DNA of 20,267 nt from a virus: IMG/VR virus record IMGVR_UViG_3300033149_002603, positions 1-20,267 of that record; one strand, written 5' to 3'. Shown piece by piece: positions 2,626 to 20,267 of the stretch. How positions within the stretch are numbered: the first letter of the stretch is position 1; each line of letters opens with the position of its first letter. The notes under the pieces were generated by a model. The model made no database searches. It worked only from the letters and a program-made list of their open reading frames with translations, and had not been told where the DNA came from. A program made the translations under genes and the position numbers.

Positions 2626-2690
2626 ACCTCGAAGAAGCCCGTAAATATGATCCTCTTGTGGGAAAAACGGAGGAGGAAGAGGGTAACTAA
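2595..2690 (+). CDS. 31-residue free-standing tag microprotein
   Basis: A short frame starting at the ATG at 2595, inside the end of the acetyltransferase gene in another frame, and ending in TAA at 2688-2690, which overlaps the next ATG (TAATG). The peptide contains 'EYEINLEEARKYDPLVGK', a clear match to the shared tag 'IEINLQKLEKG', and ends in an acidic run. There is no room for an enzyme domain. The close overlaps on both sides are typical of translationally coupled genes, and the tag match supports real coding. It could be a competitor or spacer for the docking partner, or what remains of a tagged gene that lost its effector domain. Confidence 0.6.
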   Translation: MDATVHEYEINLEEARKYDPLVGKTEEEEGN

Positions 2691-4054
2691 TGGTAGTGGA
2701 AAAGAGAGGTAATAAGTGGTGTACCATCCATTGTCACGGTGCAGATAAGGGTAAAGTTATATCCTGTTTCGATACTAAAGAAGCCGCTATGGCACAGCAT
2801 CGGGCGATTGAAGCCAGTAAACACGTCAAAAAGATTGAGATAAATCTCGGGGAATTATCTAAAATACGTGGTACTCATAGTGGATGGATAGATGTAAAAC
2901 GTGGGAGTAAAACATTTAAAAGATGGCAACGTATTGGAACAAAGACAACTTCTATAACACAAGATATATCTAAACCAAATCCTGAAATTATAGAGGTTTT
3001 GGAAGCTGCGCATAAATATAGTATTGATATGGCATTTGGTAAACCTGAAGGAGTTGTAGAATTTGATGTTGATTCTGGCGATTTTACATTTCAACCTGGA
3101 GACTATAATGACTGGAGTACGGGTGAGTCAGTACCCACAAAACCTGATCCTGTTAAATTTCGTGTAGAGGGAAACAATATTAGGCGTCTTAATGATGGAT
3201 TTTGTATTACAGTCCCTGAAAAGGAAATTGATAATCCTAATGCGTATGAAAAATTACTTCATTATTTAGATGACAAATGGGGTAGAAGGGGTAGTACACA
3301 TAAGATTTTTAAGCAAGATCATAGTGAATATGAAAATAATATAAAGAAACTTGATGAGTTCGTTCCTGAATATGAAGATGTTTTCGAGGAAGGATCAGGT
3401 AAATATAGTAAGAACATGGATCTTAAAACATGCTCAAATACACCTATTACAACTGATCATTTTGTTCCGATTCTGTGGTATGGTGGTAACCATGATGATA
3501 CGGCATTAGTAGGTGAGGCTACCCAAAGTGTATTTACTGGTAATTATGATGAAAATAATGTGATCCAGCAGCAGATACCGTTAATGATAGAAGGTGCCAA
3601 AAAGATTAATGCAAAGTATGGTACTGATGTCATTTATCGAGGTGAAACTAATATAAATAGCGCAAGAGATATATTATTACAAATTGATGAATTTGGTGAT
3701 GCTGAATTAGCTGACAAACTATTTAGTTGTACAGAAAATGAGAAACTTGGAAAATGGTATGCAGCAACACATGATCAATTAACTGCTCAAGGTACACGAA
3801 ATAAGACTAATGTGATGTTGAGAATACCACGTGAAAAGTTTGCTGATAATGTTATAATGGATCATAGATTAACAGAAAGTGCATTTAATCCTGAAGAAGA
3901 AGTAACCATAGTAGGTAATGATATATCTCTTACAGGTGATGACGTGATGATTAATGCAATTACACCAAAGTGTAAAAATAAAAAATGGATGTCATTTACT
4001 CAATTTAAGTCAGAGGGTGGAATAACAGAAGATTTTGTAAACCAAATAAGGTGA
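2690..4054 (+). CDS. Tagged ADP-ribosyltransferase-like protein, candidate internal virion effector
   Basis: A protein of 454 residues in at least three parts. Residues 6-44 form a small domain with 'KWCTIHCHG' and 'ISCFDTKEAAMAQHRAIEAS', a pattern seen in phage head proteins and echoed in the MuF-like protein here. Residues 47-85 are the shared tag ('KKIEINLGEL', W66, 'RGSKTFKRW'). The C-terminal third has the three elements of an R-S-E ADP-ribosyltransferase fold: 'VIYRGE' (R317), 'LFSCTEN' (S346, T348) and 'NPEEEVTIVG' (E402-E404). Such enzymes move ADP-ribose from NAD+ to protein side chains; T4 Alt is a packaged example. The middle region (about 100-240) is not recognised. A GGAGG-rich stretch at 2669-2684 supports the start. 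The gene is more AT-rich than the capsid genes, which may indicate acquisition. The call rests on motifs only. Confidence 0.68.
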   Translation: MVVEKRGNKWCTIHCHGADKGKVISCFDTKEAAMAQHRAIEASKHVKKIEINLGELSKIRGTHSGWIDVKRGSKTFKRWQRIGTKTTSITQDISKPNPEIIEVLEAAHKYSIDMAFGKPEGVVEFDVDSGDFTFQPGDYNDWSTGESVPTKPDPVKFRVEGNNIRRLNDGFCITVPEKEIDNPNAYEKLLHYLDDKWGRRGSTHKIFKQDHSEYENNIKKLDEFVPEYEDVFEEGSGKYSKNMDLKTCSNTPITTDHFVPILWYGGNHDDTALVGEATQSVFTGNYDENNVIQQQIPLMIEGAKKINAKYGTDVIYRGETNINSARDILLQIDEFGDAELADKLFSCTENEKLGKWYAATHDQLTAQGTRNKTNVMLRIPREKFADNVIMDHRLTESAFNPEEEVTIVGNDISLTGDDVMINAITPKCKNKKWMSFTQFKSEGGITEDFVNQIR

Positions 4055-4257: not shown

Positions 4258-4484
4258 TGACTGAAGAATTATATATCTCCGATCATACTCATGAGTATGA
4301 ATTTAAGATTGGAGATAAATCTGGATTTTTTACGGAAAATAGTATGATAGATTTTTATGATGAAGATGATGAATTCAGAATGCGTATTGATCCGACAGAT
4401 CTCGTTGTAATAAGTGCCATATATAGTACTGTAATGTCAGAATGGCATAAATATGATAAATATGATAAAGAGGACCAACGATGA
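4257..4484 (+). CDS. Small acidic protein, 75 residues, unknown
   Basis: The start at 4257 is preferred to the longer frame from 4173, because the extra 28 residues would simply be the membrane peptide region read in another frame and lack a ribosome-binding site. The protein is acidic, with 'DFYDEDDEFRMRIDPTDL' and a Lys/Asp/Tyr-rich tail. It has no cysteines, membrane segment or recognisable motif. Its stop overlaps the start of the next gene (ATGA at 4481-4484), so the two are coupled. A role as antidote or partner of a neighbouring effector is possible but not shown. Confidence 0.62.
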   Translation: MTEELYISDHTHEYEFKIGDKSGFFTENSMIDFYDEDDEFRMRIDPTDLVVISAIYSTVMSEWHKYDKYDKEDQR

Positions 4485-4780
4485 TCGAAATCGATACGGA
4501 AGATCTTACAAAATCCACAAAACATTACAAGGATGTCAGGTACACCCGGGGCGGAAATGTCTTTACACGTCGGCAACTTGTGGGATCTGAAATAAAGACA
4601 CAGTGGAACACTAAAATTAATGATGTAAGTGCTGAGATGGTTACACAGGCACAACGGGGACAATATTCCCCAACTAAGGCATCAGGACTTAAAGAGATGG
4701 CGAAACAAGCCGATCGGTTGTTAGAGATCTCGAAATTTCTATACGATGTGAAGAAACAGGCTGAAGATAATAAAAAATAA
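4481..4780 (+). CDS. Tagged small protein, 99 residues
   Basis: The N-terminus is the shared module: 'IEIDTEDL' at residues 2-9, then 'RYTRGGNVFTRRQLVG', the second half of the tag. What follows (about residues 40-99) is a helical, Lys/Glu/Gln-rich region with 'GLKEMAKQADRLLEISKF', likely a short coiled coil or helical hairpin. No catalytic motif is visible. It overlaps the previous stop by 4 bases and lies 16 bases before the first of the twin structural genes. It may be a small cargo protein or an adaptor. Confidence 0.75.
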   Translation: MIEIDTEDLTKSTKHYKDVRYTRGGNVFTRRQLVGSEIKTQWNTKINDVSAEMVTQAQRGQYSPTKASGLKEMAKQADRLLEISKFLYDVKKQAEDNKK

Positions 4781-6527: not shown

Positions 6528-7541
6528 ATGAACATAAAAAATATTTTACATATAATAATAGTAATAATGATAGTATTGTTGATATCAGGATCAGCAGCAA
6601 ATTGTGCAACGAATGAGATTACACTTAGTGATACCGATATCGATCTAAGTACGGGGAGATCCGTAAATGTAACTTTGATGGTTATGAATGCATCTGAAAT
6701 AGCAGGTGTACAGACAACCATAAATTATGATCCGAATGTAATTAATATTACAAACGGAATAGATGGTCCGGATTTTGATTACGGAACATTTTTCGATTAC
6801 AGAATTCCTGGACAACTTAGTGTATATGCTATTATGTCAAATGATGTTAAATCAGGAAATCTCTTCGTTGGAAATATAACGATAAAAGCAGTTGGCTATC
6901 AATATGACGATAGTACTATAACATTTAATACTACTGTCGGTTGTGATAACTCTGGATATTATGAACAGTTCACTAATATTGATGGATTTATAACATTGAC
7001 GTGTCCTGGACCGAGTGTATTTAATCCATTAGTGGATCATGCGATTCCGACGGATACTGATGACAATCCAATGTGGGGTGAGACAGCAACGTTATCAGTA
7101 GATTGTTATATCGCAGGTGAGGATGGTATTGAATCTGCTATGATAGATCTATCACAGTTGGGTGGAGACGTTGCGGTACCTATGGAACTGGTGACGAATG
7201 AGACAAATTGGGTTGTAACGGCAAGTGTGGAAATCACCGCTCCAGCTTCAACAATCCCCGGTGATTATGTATTCCCAATTACGGTAACTACATACGAAGG
7301 TGGTGTTACAGTATTTGATAGTAAAGCACTTACTGTATTGTGTAATGGTGATATTACTGGAGATGGTACTACTACACCTGAAGATGCTATGACATTAATA
7401 AAGTCATTATTGGGTATACCCGGATATCATATAGATTCTGTATATTCGGCGGAAGTGACGGGTGAAGGAGACATTAATGTGGCAGACGTGGTTCTATTAC
7501 TTAATCATGGATTTTCACCGGAAACGTTTGTGTTGAGATAA
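6528..7541 (+). CDS. Secreted cohesin-dockerin protein
   Basis: A protein of 337 residues. Residues 1-27 are a signal peptide: Lys near the start, a hydrophobic core 'ILHIIIVIMIVLLI', then 'GSAANCATNE'. Residues 30-157 look like a cohesin domain ('VNVTLMVMNASEIAGVQTTI', 'GNITIKAVGY', 'GFITLTC'). Residues 160-270 are a beta-rich Ig-like region. Residues 273-327 form a dockerin with two Ca2+-loop motifs, 'NGDITGDGTTTPEDAMTL' and 'TGEGDINVADVVLLL'. Cohesins bind dockerins, so the protein could self-assemble or bridge to host surface proteins carrying either domain. Six or so N-x-S/T sequons fit an archaeal glycoprotein. There is no C-terminal anchor. AAGGAG at about 6517 supports the start. A host-derived gene used in cell-surface modification or virion attachment is the likeliest reading. 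Confidence 0.82.
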   Translation: MNIKNILHIIIVIMIVLLISGSAANCATNEITLSDTDIDLSTGRSVNVTLMVMNASEIAGVQTTINYDPNVINITNGIDGPDFDYGTFFDYRIPGQLSVYAIMSNDVKSGNLFVGNITIKAVGYQYDDSTITFNTTVGCDNSGYYEQFTNIDGFITLTCPGPSVFNPLVDHAIPTDTDDNPMWGETATLSVDCYIAGEDGIESAMIDLSQLGGDVAVPMELVTNETNWVVTASVEITAPASTIPGDYVFPITVTTYEGGVTVFDSKALTVLCNGDITGDGTTTPEDAMTLIKSLLGIPGYHIDSVYSAEVTGEGDINVADVVLLLNHGFSPETFVLR

Positions 7542-7544
7542 ATC

Positions 7545-7589
7545 AATGTGTAAAGATTGTGATAATTTATATCACAATCTTTACATATT
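7545..7589. terminator. Long perfect hairpin after the cohesin-dockerin gene
   Basis: Arms at 7545-7564 and 7570-7589 pair over 20 positions with one G-U wobble and a 5-base loop (ATTTA). It begins 4 bases after the cohesin-dockerin stop. There is no T-run after it, so it is not a classic intrinsic terminator; an RNA processing or stability element, an attenuator, or a dyad recognised by a DNA-binding protein are alternatives. Confidence 0.55.
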
Positions 7590-7606: not shown

Positions 7607-7774
7607 ATGATAAATATAAATGAAATAAGAATTAGATCATTAGTCGGAATTATAAGTATGTCTGTAGTAATGATTTTACTAAATATACATGATATTGAAG
7701 TGTTGTTAGGTTACATGGTGGCATGTACAGCAGCAATTTTATTGGATAAAGATGTACCAAAACCGGGGGTGTGA
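7607..7774 (+). CDS. Small membrane protein with two spans, 55 residues
   Basis: The ATG at 7607 follows 'AGAGGACT' in the hairpin's downstream flank. Two hydrophobic stretches are visible: 'SLVGIISMSVVMILL' and 'VLLGYMVACTAAILL', separated by a short polar turn 'NIHDIE', with a charged C-terminal tail 'DKDVPKPGV'. Size and topology are holin-like, but the location and the absence of a lysin nearby make that only one option. It is followed after 2 bases by another small gene, suggesting a coupled pair. Confidence 0.6.
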   Translation: MININEIRIRSLVGIISMSVVMILLNIHDIEVLLGYMVACTAAILLDKDVPKPGV

Positions 7775-7776
7775 TT

Positions 7777-7914
7777 ATGCCGTTATCATCGGCAATCATA
7801 CTCCTGGATAATATAATATTATCTACTAGTATGAAAGATCCACGACGTGATGAATTACTTGTAGTGCGTAATATTATGGTTAATTTCGTCGATAATATTG
7901 TGAAGGAAGTGTAA
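7777..7914 (+). CDS. Small protein, 45 residues, unknown
   Basis: The frame starts 2 bases after the stop of the two-span membrane protein, with 'GGGGGTGTGA' upstream, and ends 3 bases before the receiver gene. The peptide alternates aliphatic stretches ('SSAIILLDNIILS' and 'RNIMVNFVDNIV') with a charged middle 'MKDPRRDELL', giving two amphipathic helices. No family is recognised. The packing between two genes with normal ribosome-binding sites supports coding. Confidence 0.55.
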   Translation: MPLSSAIILLDNIILSTSMKDPRRDELLVVRNIMVNFVDNIVKEV

Positions 7915-7917
7915 TAA

Positions 7918-8322
7918 ATGGTAGAAAGGAGTAATAAAATTCTTGTTGTCGATGATAATTCGGCATATCAGAGATTGGTGTTGGAATCCATGAAGGATCA
8001 GGGTGACGGTTCACTTACGGATCATATCCTCTTTGCAGAAAATGGTGAAGAGGCACTGAAATTATATGCTGAATACTATCCAATTCTAACTCTTATGGAT
8101 GTGAAGATGCCAAAACGGGATGGAACTGAAATAGCTATGGATATAAGAAAAATTGATGCCAATGCATCAATTATGTTTTTAACTAATTTCCCAAAGGATC
8201 CTAAGGCGATGGAGGTTGTAGCGAAACATGTAGTTATGGGATCGATCGATAAGAATTATGGTACTAATTTAGTAGCAAGTATGATAGGATTCGTAATAAA
8301 AATTGCGAGGGTTGCGATGTGA
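7918..8322 (+). CDS. Stand-alone response regulator receiver domain
   Basis: A protein of 134 residues that is almost exactly one receiver domain, without a DNA-binding or other output domain. The full phosphorylation site is present: acidic pair D12/D13 in 'ILVVDDN', phospho-acceptor D61 in 'LTLMDVKMPKRDG', T89 in 'MFLTNFP' and K112 in 'GSIDKNYG'. It should accept phosphate from a histidine kinase and act through protein contacts, like CheY or Spo0F. It lies just upstream of a PocR-DHp protein, the obvious partner. GAAGGAAGTG precedes the start. A receiver inside a capsid gene block is unusual. It could divert host phosphorelay signals, but that is inference. Confidence 0.9.
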   Translation: MVERSNKILVVDDNSAYQRLVLESMKDQGDGSLTDHILFAENGEEALKLYAEYYPILTLMDVKMPKRDGTEIAMDIRKIDANASIMFLTNFPKDPKAMEVVAKHVVMGSIDKNYGTNLVASMIGFVIKIARVAM

Positions 8323-8444
8323 ATAGACTAAGATTAGGACTGGGAGAAATAATCGATTTCTATGACGGATTGGATTTTGACCTTGCATGTAAACAGGCAG
8401 AGAAATTAACGAAAGAGGAGTATTACAATGTCGATGATGAATGA
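8319..8444 (+). CDS. Possible 41-residue protein with a GTG start
   Basis: The GTG at 8319 overlaps the receiver stop (GTGA), has a strong 'GCGAGGGTT' ribosome-binding site and reads 41 codons to TGA at 8442-8444, overlapping the start of the PocR protein by 17 bases. The peptide is 'GLGEIIDFYDGLDFDLA', then a charged helix 'CKQAEKLTKEEYYN'. It would link translation of the two signalling genes and fills their 105-base gap. No family is recognised. Confidence 0.5.
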   Translation: MNRLRLGLGEIIDFYDGLDFDLACKQAEKLTKEEYYNVDDE

Positions 8445-9174
8445 TAAGGTATTTTTAAAGAAACTTCAAGAGTTCCAGGAAATGTTTAGTCTTCACTTTG
8501 GAGTTGCGTCTCTAGTCGTTGATGATGAAGGAAATGCATTAACAAAACCGACGGGATTCACAAATTTCTGTAAAATGATCAGATCTACCGAGAAAGGTGG
8601 TAAATTGTGCCGAGATTCTAAAAAGAACCTATTTGATAAGGTTGCAGACGGAGAGGCACACACGTACCATTGTAGTATATTTGATGAACTTGCGGATTCG
8701 ATCTTGCCTATTATGGATGGTGATGAGGTCGTAGCCTGTGTAGCCGTGGGACAAAAGCGAGTAGCGGATATTACACGCGAGCGAGTAACAGAGGTCGCTA
8801 ATGATATCGGGCTTGACCCGGATGAATTTTGGCAGGCATATCTCGAAGTCCCGTACGGTACAATGGAAGAGTTTGAACGTGGCGTATATTTCTTAAATAA
8901 TACAATTGGGATTATAATGGCGAAGCGGACGCAGGATGTGGAACTCGCTGAAAGTAACGATAAATTATTGAAATTCATTAATATAACGGCACACGATCTC
9001 CGAGAGGATTTAGGTATTATTGTAGGATATTGTGAATTATTGCATGGTCGATATAGTGATGTGTTAGATCCGGATGCTAAAGATTTCGTAGATTATATAT
9101 ATGACAATTCAATTTCTCTAAAAAATACGGCACAACGGTTAATGAACGCTGCGCGCGGTGATAAATATACATAA
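8428..9174 (+). CDS. PocR sensor domain joined to a histidine phosphotransfer (DHp) helix pair, no kinase domain
   Basis: A protein of 248 residues. Residues 10-165 match a PocR sensory domain, with three spaced cysteines, C48 ('FTNFCKMIR'), C61 ('GGKLCRDS') and C82 ('YHCSIFDELADSILPI'), then 'ACVAVGQKRV'. PocR domains bind small ligands in sensor kinases and regulators of anaerobes and methanogens. Residues 180-245 are a HisKA-type dimerisation helix pair with the H-box 'ITAHDLREDLGIIVGY' (H189). The protein stops there: the N, G1 and G2 boxes of a HATPase domain are absent. It cannot phosphorylate itself and could instead be trans-phosphorylated, heterodimerise with host kinases or act as decoy or phosphatase. 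The stop is clean, with another gene 26 bases later. GAGGAG at about 8415 supports the start. Confidence 0.85.
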   Translation: MSMMNDKVFLKKLQEFQEMFSLHFGVASLVVDDEGNALTKPTGFTNFCKMIRSTEKGGKLCRDSKKNLFDKVADGEAHTYHCSIFDELADSILPIMDGDEVVACVAVGQKRVADITRERVTEVANDIGLDPDEFWQAYLEVPYGTMEEFERGVYFLNNTIGIIMAKRTQDVELAESNDKLLKFINITAHDLREDLGIIVGYCELLHGRYSDVLDPDAKDFVDYIYDNSISLKNTAQRLMNAARGDKYT

Positions 9175-9199: not shown

Positions 9200-9415
9200 A
9201 TGATTGAGATTGAGATAGATATTATAGAATTAGAAAAATATCGTACTCTTGGTGCTAAAAATAAGAAAAAGAAGGTATCTAAATCTAAAAAATCACTAAA
9301 AGACATTATCAGTGAAAGTTTTAGTTATAAAAAGGATAAACCGGAAAAGGAAAAGTTCCCGTGGGAATCAGACATCCCAGTTTCGAAAGTACCTGGAATG
9401 TATAGTGTTAAGTGA
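9200..9415 (+). CDS. Tagged Lys-rich small protein, 71 residues
   Basis: It starts with the shared module ('IEIDIIEL' at residues 4-11, then 'EKYRTLG'), followed by a strongly basic run, 'KNKKKKVSKSKKSLKD', and an aromatic tail. The second half of the module, W-x-x-V-x-R-G-G-K, is replaced by the Lys-rich stretch. A basic internal protein could bind packaged DNA, as some phage internal proteins do. 'GGGAGAATT' lies upstream of the ATG, and the MuF-like gene begins 14 bases after the stop. Confidence 0.7.
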   Translation: MIEIEIDIIELEKYRTLGAKNKKKKVSKSKKSLKDIISESFSYKKDKPEKEKFPWESDIPVSKVPGMYSVK

Positions 9416-9429
9416 TTTAAGGTGAGAAA

Positions 9430-10575
9430 ATGGATGAGAAGTTAGAAAAAATGAGTGTTATAACGGGTTTCATCTCGAAATTGCTTGATAGTCTACATAT
9501 CAAGGATTTCCGGACGTTACTTATAGGTAGTACGATATCAGCACTTACATCTTCTCACGAAAATACTAATGTAGAGTATGGTTTTAGAGAAACTAAACCT
9601 GATCCTGAGGCTATATCTTATTTAGAGACACGTGCGATCATTCTTTCAGAAAAAACAGCTTCACGCATTGAGGGAGACCTCAAATTTGAATTGTTAGAGG
9701 GCTTAAAAGCCAGTGAAAGTATAGATCAAATGACGGAACGGATTGGGAAAGTCTTTAAAGCCGGAACGCCACGGTGGCAATTAGAGAGAATCGCCAGAAG
9801 TGAGATCATCGATTCCCAGAATGCGGGTAGATTATCGGCATATAAGGCATCTAATGTAGTTAAATACAAGATGTGGGTTACTGGAAAGGGTGTGCGAGTA
9901 TGTGCATTGTGTAAGAGACTTAATGGACAAATACAACCTTTAGATAAGTCATTCGTTGACCCGGAAGATCCGAGTAAAACATGGATGCATCCGATCGCAC
10001 ACCCGAACGGACGTTGTTCCACAGTACCATTACGAAGATTACCCGACGATGTGGTAAAGATCAGTGGACAGATGTATGATGCGTCACGTGTGACGAAGAT
10101 TGAGTTACCATCAGATTTATTTAAATCCCGAAAAAAGAGGAAAGCATGGGTTGTAAGGTTTGCAAACGGTCATGCCATACAATGCTTTGAAGATGAGGAT
10201 GATGCGGATCATTTTATATCCACAAGTAATAAAAAGGACGTTGGATGGTTTGATTTCGTCGGTAAAACATACCGGGAATTGAAGCCCGGGTGGAAAATTA
10301 ACAAAAGTGGGACGAAGATAACATTTAAAACTGATGGCGAGAGTAGAAAGAACGTTAAAAAACTCGAAATAGAGACTTTACAACTTAAAAAATTCAATAA
10401 GGAAGGTTTAATCCGTAAAAAAGTCCCGGTTCATCGATTAGGTAAAGAACCGACGATGGAATACCGATATGTTAAAGCTGAAAATCTACAACTCGAGGTT
10501 AAAGATGATATCACAAAATCTGAAGATGTTTCAAAAATTGATCGCAGCCAGTATGACTGGTCGGGATGCAATTAA
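9430..10575 (+). CDS. Mu gpF-like minor head protein (SPP1 gp7-like)
   Basis: A protein of 381 residues. The gpF core spans about 75-205: a helical segment with 'GTPRWQLERIARSEIIDSQN', then the four-residue zinc-like set 'CALC' (C158, C161) and 'HPNGRC' (H191, C196). In SPP1, Mu and relatives this protein enters the procapsid with the portal and affects DNA ejection. Residues 236-262, 'KAWVVRFANGHAIQCFED', parallel a domain at the start of the ADP-ribosyltransferase-like protein. Residues 311-319 contain 'KLEIETLQL', matching the shared tag, here inside a C-terminal extension. In many phages the MuF C-terminus carries effector domains; here the effectors are mostly separate genes. AAGGTGAG precedes the start. 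The normal neighbour, portal, lies 8 kb upstream. Confidence 0.92.
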   Translation: MDEKLEKMSVITGFISKLLDSLHIKDFRTLLIGSTISALTSSHENTNVEYGFRETKPDPEAISYLETRAIILSEKTASRIEGDLKFELLEGLKASESIDQMTERIGKVFKAGTPRWQLERIARSEIIDSQNAGRLSAYKASNVVKYKMWVTGKGVRVCALCKRLNGQIQPLDKSFVDPEDPSKTWMHPIAHPNGRCSTVPLRRLPDDVVKISGQMYDASRVTKIELPSDLFKSRKKRKAWVVRFANGHAIQCFEDEDDADHFISTSNKKDVGWFDFVGKTYRELKPGWKINKSGTKITFKTDGESRKNVKKLEIETLQLKKFNKEGLIRKKVPVHRLGKEPTMEYRYVKAENLQLEVKDDITKSEDVSKIDRSQYDWSGCN

Positions 10576-11968: not shown

Positions 11969-12469
11969 ATGAATGCTAATATTATAAAATCTATAGAATG
12001 GCATAGAGATCAGTTGGAAAAGTTGGTATCTCATGATGACTTTTATAGATTAGAAATCGAGTTGGATAGTATGATTGAAAAAGCCGAAAAAGGTCAACGT
12101 ACCGAACTAAGACAAGTAAAACGCGGTGGTAAGGTATTTCAACGGAAAACCAGAGTTGGCGTAAAAGAAACAGATGGTAAATCATTTTGGAGAGGTACTG
12201 ACTTAAAACGTAGGTTTGATGCCGAAGAGTTAGATCCGGACTCATTAGATTATGCAAAATCTTGTGCATATAGAAAAGTTGATAAAATGCGCGGTAAGAA
12301 TAAGACTTTTGGTATGGCGTATATTAAATATGTGGAAGGTAAAGGTCCAGAACCCACTTTCGTAGAAAGTGGGATTAGTATCTCTGCTGCAAATAAGATA
12401 AGAAATGGTTTGACTTCATATAAAAATCAAGTAACTGGTGAAAAACCTTCGGTTGGAGTAATTTCATAA
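11969..12469 (+). CDS. Tagged protein combining both module types, 166 residues
   Basis: Residues 5-35 hold the W-H module ('IKSIEWHRDQLEKLV', then 'LEIELDSM' as the 8-residue tag), and residues 46-64 hold the tag's second half ('ELRQVKRGGKVFQRKTRVG'). This protein therefore links the two versions of the module seen elsewhere in the window. The remaining 100 residues, with 'SFWRGTDLKRRF', 'KTFGMAYIKYVEG' and 'ISISAANKIRNGL', are not recognised; there is no obvious metal or nucleotide site. 'AAGGAGATAATTATT' gives a good ribosome-binding site. Probably another internal protein with an unidentified C-terminal domain. Confidence 0.73.
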   Translation: MNANIIKSIEWHRDQLEKLVSHDDFYRLEIELDSMIEKAEKGQRTELRQVKRGGKVFQRKTRVGVKETDGKSFWRGTDLKRRFDAEELDPDSLDYAKSCAYRKVDKMRGKNKTFGMAYIKYVEGKGPEPTFVESGISISAANKIRNGLTSYKNQVTGEKPSVGVIS

Positions 12470-12495: not shown

Positions 12496-13644
12496 ATGGA
12501 GGAAGATTTTGAGTATGTTTTACAACTTGAAAAACTTGAGAGTACTGATCCTAATCGACTTATAATCGCCGGTATGGCATCTTCGGGTGATCTTGATCAC
12601 GACGGAGAACGCATAGATATTGATTCACTACGTGGGCAATTCGATAAATACATGAAGAACCCCGTTATACGCTTTATGCACGGAAAGGACGGTAGAAACC
12701 CGGATGCAATTGGAAAGGTCATCCCAGAGTATACGGACACTAAAGGTAAAGTGTGGAAGACGGAATTTCGGAATAACGGACCTTTTATCATAGCGGAAAT
12801 ATCTAATGCAGACGATGTAAAGTCTATCCGGACTAAAATTATAGAAAAGAATCTACGTGGGTTGAGTATAGGCGGTCGAGCGAAACGTACTAAAGTCTAT
12901 GATCCGAATTTAGATAAAGACGTAAATAATATTACGGTACTTCGCTGGAATGAGACGTCTGTAGTGGATTTGCCAGCGAACCCGGTCGGGTTTTTTGAAG
13001 TGCTAAAGTCTGTGTGTATGGGTCCAAATTGTCCACTTAATGACGGTGAGGAATCGATCGAAAAGGCAGGAAAACCAATGGAAGAATTGACACCTGAGAA
13101 TTATAACGAAGATGAAATATATCGTGGTCTCATCAAACAGGGTTATCGCGAGGATGAAGCTAAAGTTATAATGTATGAGATATTACGTAACGTTAATAAT
13201 ACTGTATACGATAAAGAACATGAAAGAGACGAAGTTTATCATACATTTCTGTCATTAGGTTATACTGAAGAAGCTGCAATGGAACGATCAAAATCAGTAT
13301 TAGATGGAATTAATATAAAGAAATCTATAGATTATAAGGAAATAAATTCCGAAATGCAGGATTATATAGAGAAACTTGAATTAAAAATACAAGATATGAG
13401 ATTTATATATGATAACATGACGGAAGAACCGGTAGAAATCGAAAAAGCCGAAAGTGACGGACGACCGTCAAAATCGTGGATGGACAATTGTCTTTCCACA
13501 ATGAGGCACGTTAAGGACGTTGACGATCCCGGTGCACTGTGTGGATGGCTTTGGTATCACGGAGAGGACGCCGGATTTGCGGCGCAACGTAAAGGTGTAG
13601 GGAAATCAGAGACAGTCGAAATTGATTTATCTGAATTGATATGA
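12496..13644 (+). CDS. HK97-type prohead protease with a C-terminal tag
   Basis: A protein of 382 residues. The protease core spans residues 1-170: catalytic H62 in 'IRFMHGKD', S124 in 'RGLSIGGRA', and the strand 'NETSVVDLPANP' that follows in this serine protease family. It cleaves scaffold, capsid N-termini or internal proteins during head maturation. Residues 180-330 are a helical extension with two similar repeats ('YRGLIKQGYREDEAK' and 'YHTFLSLGYTEEAAM'). Residues 345-365, 'SKSWMDNCLSTMRHVKD', then 'GALCGWLWYHG', form a small Cys/Trp domain seen at the end of other phage proteases. The last residues, 'ETVEIDLSELI', match the shared tag, suggesting the protease docks by the same contact as the cargo. 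GGAGGT precedes the start. Confidence 0.93.
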   Translation: MEEDFEYVLQLEKLESTDPNRLIIAGMASSGDLDHDGERIDIDSLRGQFDKYMKNPVIRFMHGKDGRNPDAIGKVIPEYTDTKGKVWKTEFRNNGPFIIAEISNADDVKSIRTKIIEKNLRGLSIGGRAKRTKVYDPNLDKDVNNITVLRWNETSVVDLPANPVGFFEVLKSVCMGPNCPLNDGEESIEKAGKPMEELTPENYNEDEIYRGLIKQGYREDEAKVIMYEILRNVNNTVYDKEHERDEVYHTFLSLGYTEEAAMERSKSVLDGINIKKSIDYKEINSEMQDYIEKLELKIQDMRFIYDNMTEEPVEIEKAESDGRPSKSWMDNCLSTMRHVKDVDDPGALCGWLWYHGEDAGFAAQRKGVGKSETVEIDLSELI

Positions 13645-19826: not shown

Positions 19827-20267
19827 ATGGGAATTGATACTAAGGACAGGAGGAAATCTGTAGTTAATTGGTTCCTACGTTTACTCCCGTCACCTGATAC
19901 CATAATCGATACTGCGGATCGTGCGCATATAGGCGGGTTATATCGTGGTTTATTTGCTGCATTAAATATACTTTCTACGACAGCAGATCTATTAATATAT
20001 ACGAGAAAACTTAAATCGTTTACATCTGATTTATTAATATATGTAAGGAATATTAAATCGTTAACATCTGATTTATTAGTTAAAAAATTAGATATAATCA
20101 AATCGTTAACATCTGATTTATTAGTTAAAAGATTAGATATAGTTAAATCGTTTACATCTGATTTATTAGTTAAAAGATTAGATATAATCAAATCGTTAAC
20201 ATCTGATTTATTAGTTAAAAGATTAGATATAATCAAATCGTTAACATCTGATTTATTAGTTAAAAGA
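19827..20267 (+). CDS. Repeat-containing phage structural protein, 3' end beyond the window
   Basis: ATG 19827 follows 'AAAGGAGGAGAAT' and the frame stays open to the end (147 codons visible). The first 50 residues, with 'PSPDTIIDTADRAHIGGLYR', resemble a small protein family often found in phage structural regions. Thereafter the protein is made of 14-15-residue repeats, consensus 'KSLTSDLLVKRLDII'. Each repeat is amphipathic, with Leu/Ile/Val at regular spacing, suggesting a helical or coiled-coil rod. The first two copies ('LSTTADLLIYTRKL', 'KSFTSDLLIYVRNI') have diverged; later ones are nearly identical. A length-variable fibre shaft or spacer is a reasonable guess. Confidence 0.6.
   Translation, partial: MGIDTKDRRKSVVNWFLRLLPSPDTIIDTADRAHIGGLYRGLFAALNILSTTADLLIYTRKLKSFTSDLLIYVRNIKSLTSDLLVKKLDIIKSLTSDLLVKRLDIVKSFTSDLLVKRLDIIKSLTSDLLVKRLDIIKSLTSDLLVKR
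20013..20267 (+). repeat. In-frame tandem repeat, 45-bp unit
   Basis: Units begin with AAATCGTT at 20013 (42 bases, diverged), 20055, 20100, 20145, 20190 and 20235 (cut by the window). Copies from 20055 on are 45 bases long and differ at only a few positions. A more diverged unit may precede them at 19971. Because the unit is a multiple of three, copy-number change keeps the frame. Confidence 0.95.

Follow-up and report, generated by a model that had tools for sequence, protein, structure and literature searches.

A receiver and a PocR-DHp protein lacking an ATPase domain form a conserved gene pair in the head-gene block of tailed viruses

What use could a tailed virus make of a lone receiver and a sensor protein that carries an H-box but stops short of a kinase ATPase domain? 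The question is raised by the window analysed here, a tailed-virus fragment of 20,267 b that is a complete IMG/VR record. The portal gene (2–1342) and the gene of the MuF minor head protein (9430–10575, + strand) enclose an accessory block that houses the receiver and PocR-DHp genes, and a prohead-protease-like gene and an SU10-type major capsid gene start at positions 12496 and 14251. On the 3′ side of PocR-DHp there is a separate small ORF for 71 lysine-rich residues (9200–9415, + strand), which has a homologue at the equivalent place in the relative G010, followed by the MuF gene, the steady 3′ neighbour of the pair.

The receiver (7918–8322, + strand) is 134 residues long and is matched by Pfam Response_reg (1.5e-13). 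It consists of one receiver domain with the D/D/D/T/K active site and no output domain, which places it among the REC-only response regulators. As the original prediction had it, the phosphorylation set is complete, comprising D12, D13, D61, T89 and K112, all of which are invariant in the three viral homologues. The top PDB matches are those of CheY proteins and of Spo0F, whilst the nearest curated model is that of haloarchaeal CheY, at 51 bits and well below its cut-off of 200.

The PocR-DHp (PocR-HisKA) protein (8428–9174, + strand; 248 residues) is made up of a PocR domain (residues 8–165), a linker helix and a HisKA domain (residues 181–245). The PocR match (PF10114; 1.2e-33) scores 116.6 bits against a cut-off of 23.9, and those of the G001 and G010 proteins likewise lie above cut-off. 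Simple hydrocarbon derivatives are the predicted ligands of the PocR family; among the cysteines of the putative ligand pocket, C48 and C82 are present in all three viruses and C60 in two. The HisKA match (PF00512; 2.6e-6) reaches 27.8 bits against a cut-off of 26.9, and the two relatives score below it (21.0 and 19.6), with the H-box and its histidine aligning without gaps. The H-box, H189-D-L-R-E-D-L195 (8992–9012, + strand), places H189 within the sequence TAHDLREDL and is intact in the window, as had been proposed, and in the two relatives as well; the H+5 position, normally Pro, is Asp in the window and His and Ser in the relatives. The viral DHp domain aligns with cellular HDLQEPL-type DHp domains from haloarchaeal and bacterial kinases up to the end of the second helix, and in all three viruses the protein ends about 10 residues beyond that helix. 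Structure prediction of the protein was poor (mean pLDDT 45.2 with two sequences and 47.7 with three).

No match to HATPase_c (PF02518) is present in the entire 20,267-b record, even at E ≤ 10 and with the search reading through stops, and none is found at E ≤ 1 in the records of G001 and G010, one of which is 52 kb long. The protein thus lacks the HATPase (CA) domain that defines a histidine kinase, and because this domain is absent it cannot use ATP to phosphorylate its own histidine. The original prediction that the protein stops before an ATPase domain therefore extends to two independent relatives, and its corollary, that self-phosphorylation is impossible, follows from the absent domain. 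A frameshifted HATPase domain was sought in the window and in the G001 and G010 records and none was found, the end point being common to the three viruses. As far as can be judged from these sequences, the pair can function only with phosphate from a host kinase or another donor.

Scans of IMG/VR with the receiver or PocR-DHp alone as query found nothing, and relatives were reached via portal, capsid and MuF. Two of them carry the pair: IMGVR_UViG_3300005100_000017 (G001), in which the receiver and PocR-HisKA are each 39% identical to those of the window, and the 52-kb IMGVR_UViG_3300033142_001318 (G010), with 43% and 49% identity respectively. The gene order receiver, PocR-DHp, one small gene and MuF is the same in all three viruses, and lengths hardly vary (134/134/134 residues for the receivers and 248/248/245 for PocR-DHp). 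H189, D190, R192, E193 and L195 are invariant; homologues in which H189 or D61 was not conserved had been named in advance as grounds for rejecting the prediction, and both residues are kept in all three. Codon differences are commonest at third positions, and dN/dS is about 0.08–0.29 for those comparisons of the pair that are free of saturation, a pattern that fits purifying selection on the pair. A fragment from another metagenome, 99.7–99.8% identical to G010 over the main blocks, begins 3′ of the pair.

Three small ORFs that were absent from the original account accompany the two genes. A 41-residue ORF with a GTG start (8319–8444, + strand) overlaps the receiver gene by 4 nt and the PocR-DHp gene by 17 nt, and an ORF of 41–55 residues is found at this place in all three viruses, with an overlap of 4 nt at the receiver stop and of 17–83 nt at the PocR-DHp start; the receiver, small ORF and PocR-DHp are a set coupled by overlap in each virus. 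Immediately 5′ of the receiver is an ORF of 45 residues (7777–7914, + strand), with a homologue in G010 ('...STKDPRR.EL...') and a length of 43–45 residues in the two of three viruses that have it. The module is bordered by a hydrophobic ORF of 55 residues (7607–7774, + strand), which has a positional match of 53–57 residues 5′ of the gene set in both relatives and is close in sequence in G010 (MININEIRIRSLVGI...). Between this first small gene and the preceding gene lies a 20-nt inverted repeat (7545–7589; 95% complementary, with a 5-nt loop). The preceding gene (6528–7541) encodes a signal-peptide-like protein, here of viral origin, in which a cohesin domain is accompanied by a weak match to dockerin, and a dockerin-like repeat ORF was recognised by eye at 1–465 of the relative locus L006.

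Elsewhere in the window, several accessory proteins of differing type are headed by a common segment, MIEIxLxxLEKGTxxxxxVTRGGKxFxQRxxxGxK (1345–1974, 1999–2625, 2690–4054, 4481–4780 and 11969–12469), which recurs in relatives at 482–1402 and 3848 of L002, 475–3673 of L011 and 15322 of L038. The proteins that bear it include a GNAT acetyltransferase (Pfam) and, by eye, JAB/HNHP-like, possible ADP-ribosyltransferase and metallopeptidase proteins; the receiver and PocR-DHp do not carry it. In relatives, MuF proteins carry the segment directly after the MuF domain. The segment resembles a tag by which cargo associated with MuF would be sorted or processed. The MuF protein of G001 (L008, 2235–4220) has a C-terminal domain that partly matches TIGR03843 (SCO1664 family), which suggests a MuF-linked effector. 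Tandem repeats of about 16 residues (KSLTSDLLVKRLDII) are found in a virion-type protein of the window (19827–20267) and in L002 (17312–18745), and are long in G002 too; G002 also encodes a ribonucleotide-reductase-like protein with an apparent intein, recognised by eye (L012, 10593–13370).

Among the relatives found, only one clade has the pair. Virus contigs G002 (73 kb), G011, G012, G013 and C112 of G006 carry neither PocR-HisKA nor the receiver, and in the capsid tree the three pair-bearing viruses and the near-copy fragment group together (93/96) inside a larger pair-less set. The simplest reading of this tree, which is small, has no known root and has a group count confused by the identical fragment without the region, would be one gain of the pair within that clade. 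PHROGs contains no match to the PocR protein, INPHARED phage records gave only two weak, partial matches to the PocR region (labelled Bacteriophage sp. and Enterococcus phage), and PADLOC and NCBIfam matched no specific system. The view that the arrangement is unusual in a capsid block is upheld by the single clade and the lack of a PHROG for the PocR protein, and neither phage records nor PHROGs nor the open-access papers searched yielded a receiver/PocR-DHp pair borne by a virus. The architecture of a sensor plus HisKA with no HATPase is already known in archaeal cells (PMC5847659); what is new is its occurrence in a virus, there with PocR as the sensor, together with a linked receiver gene and conservation across the clade.

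An archaeal host of the pair-bearing viruses is likely, though not proven, because of an HHTV-2-like capsid, an RFC-like clamp loader, an ATP-dependent ligase, the cohesin/dockerin protein and the CheY-like receiver model. The nearest named capsid to that of the window belongs to Haloarcula hispanica tailed virus 2, G010 encodes a Rad17/RFC-like AAA protein, and ATP-dependent DNA ligases are encoded by both G010 and G002. The sole genome match is a 59.8-kb contig (C112 of G006; L032–L034) binned with a Planctomycetota MAG. Among its larger ORFs, those for terminase, portal, MuF and protease lie at one end and the capsid gene sits at the opposite end. In the first 40 kb none of the larger ORFs was recognised as a cellular marker, so the contig was judged a mis-binned virus, probably with a circularly permuted genome, and not a pointer to the host.

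We tentatively favour the reading that the pair is a ligand-gated phosphotransferase module, vertically kept, that would divert or drain a host phosphorelay via its own receiver. The receiver encoded alongside is the likely partner of PocR-DHp, and we infer that the two proteins interact; the ligand, the source of phosphate, the direction of transfer and the viral benefit enter as proposals. PocR would bind a small molecule and gate a homodimeric DHp domain, which, since phosphohistidine cannot be made from ATP, would act as a phosphotransferase. Phosphate would reach D61 of the viral receiver from a host kinase or a small phosphodonor and shuttle between D61 and H189, or a host kinase would load H189 directly; it would then finish on a viral or host receiver, or be lost. 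The outcome would be a ligand-dependent diversion or drain of the host phosphorelay, in a manner resembling Spo0F/Spo0B, and it is on this footing that we infer a tap into host signalling.

The H-box bears on whether such a DHp domain would transfer phosphate or remove it. HisKA phosphatases are recognised by Thr or Asn at H+4 (or Glu, as in DrBphP) together with Pro or Gly at H+5. The viral domains retain the His, the H+1 Asp and the H+4 Glu in all three viruses, whereas the H+5 Pro, which 10 of the 11 cellular comparators share (a convenience sample rather than the host's kinases), is replaced by Asp, His and Ser. The closest cellular DHp domains found are those of HDLQEPL-type kinases on haloarchaeal and bacterial plasmids. 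The H+1 Asp is needed for autokinase activity, and its retention in the viral DHp despite the absent kinase domain could reflect loading in trans by a CA domain of the host or mere family inheritance. A ligand-gated phosphatase, acting as an off-switch that keeps a viral or host receiver dephosphorylated, is unlikely. The conserved H+4 Glu speaks for it, as this residue supports the ATP-dependent phosphatase of DrBphP (PMC8292422), as do the EnvZ DHp domain, for which PMC3510030 cites phosphatase activity in the absence of a kinase domain (its reference 16), and the role suggested by Galperin et al. for archaeal HisKA-only proteins (PMC5847659). The loss of the H+5 Pro weighs against it, given that P222A in VicK, at this same position, abolishes phosphatase with autokinase nearly intact (PMC3582566) and P376A in CrdS reduces phosphatase with kinase activity kept (PMC3510030), and the phosphatase activities of DrBphP and VicK both require ATP (PMC8292422; PMC3582566), for which PocR-DHp has no binding domain. 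Because it has neither an ATP-binding domain nor the H+5 Pro, the protein is a weaker phosphatase and a better phosphotransfer candidate; the lost Pro weakens the phosphatase option of the original prediction.

A dominant-negative or titrating subunit, which would form mixed dimers with host HDLQEPL-type kinases or bind their receivers while the viral receiver absorbs phosphate, appears somewhat less probable again. DHp domains dimerise, the nearest relatives found are full-length cellular kinases, and the phage protein PIT4, which binds several host histidine kinases, provides a precedent (PMC10714779); at 33–40% identity to the sampled cellular DHp domains, however, mixed dimers are not obvious, and a pure decoy would have no need of the conserved H189 and receiver active site. 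We give still less credence to a receiver acting outside phosphorelay, as a CheY-like motility decoy or a nucleotide-acting phage cREC, with PocR-DHp a separate ligand-dependent dimer. The haloarchaeal CheY model and the tie of phage cREC to NAD/ADP-ribose enzymes (PMC7824862) point in this direction, as does the possible ADP-ribosyltransferase-like ORF about 4 kb upstream (2690–4054; by eye, with no Pfam support), but every conventional receiver residue is present, cREC reportedly never accompanies histidine-kinase systems, and in all three viruses the DHp gene is linked via the overlapping small ORF. Cellular replicons do contain kinase genes split between HisKA and ATPase (Natrinema DC36, Deinococcus QL22), so that a captured and decaying host kinase fragment, or a sequencing artefact in which the ATPase was lost by frameshift, might be envisaged; such a passive origin is exceedingly improbable and is effectively ruled out by the common end point, the intact active sites and the lack of a HATPase remnant in any frame in three diverged viruses.

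If the ligand-gated phosphotransferase reading is true, this is a virus module that relies on host two-component kinases. A broader and more speculative proposal is that a family of archaeal tailed viruses might run their own segment of a ligand-sensing phosphorelay, expressed with head genes and powered by host kinases alone, that during infection reads the metabolism of the host and redirects its signalling. Archaeal HisKA-only proteins of cells were catalogued in 2018 with suggested roles and without experiments, whereas the viral unit is compact, conserved and made of two proteins. Because the likely partner is given by gene order, the choice between phosphotransferase, phosphatase and scaffold is directly testable with two small proteins.

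Several known systems resemble the pair in part. In Bacillus sporulation, Spo0F and Spo0B relay phosphate between receiver and DHp, and the viral pair likewise combines a lone receiver with a putative ATP-independent DHp-type phosphotransferase, no homology being claimed beyond domain types. Unlike PocR-DHp, Spo0B retains a CA domain in degenerate form, and it lacks a PocR sensor. As PocR-DHp ends about 10 residues past the second helix, without the degenerate CA domain that follows the DHp of Spo0B and ChpT, it would work like these proteins and is not one of them. REC-only proteins are common in archaea. In Methanosarcina acetivorans such proteins receive phosphate from kinases to which they are not attached, and a role as hubs has been proposed for them (PMC11784639); like them and archaeal CheY, the viral receiver stands alone with a full active site and no output domain, but it is virus-encoded, lies in a head-gene block and has a partner without kinase activity. 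Nonenzymatic histidine-kinase-like proteins with HisKA and no HATPase occur in Archaeoglobi and Methanomicrobia and have been proposed as phosphoacceptors or phosphatases, with no partner named and no experiment in that study (PMC5847659). PocR-DHp shares their N-terminal sensor, C-terminal HisKA with conserved His and lack of HATPase, and differs in its PocR sensor, its linked receiver gene, the lost H+5 Pro and its origin, being encoded not by an archaeon but by tailed viruses (portal, MuF, protease and SU10-type capsid). Phage PIT4 is described as binding host kinase domains (PMC10714779); its likeness to the viral pair is that of a viral protein acting on host two-component systems, a role proposed here for the pair. 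The cREC of jumbo phages is also a receiver-type fold with conserved Asp residues in a virus; its associates are NAD/ADP-ribose enzymes and never components of histidine kinases (PMC7824862), whereas the receiver described here is linked to a DHp gene in all three viruses.
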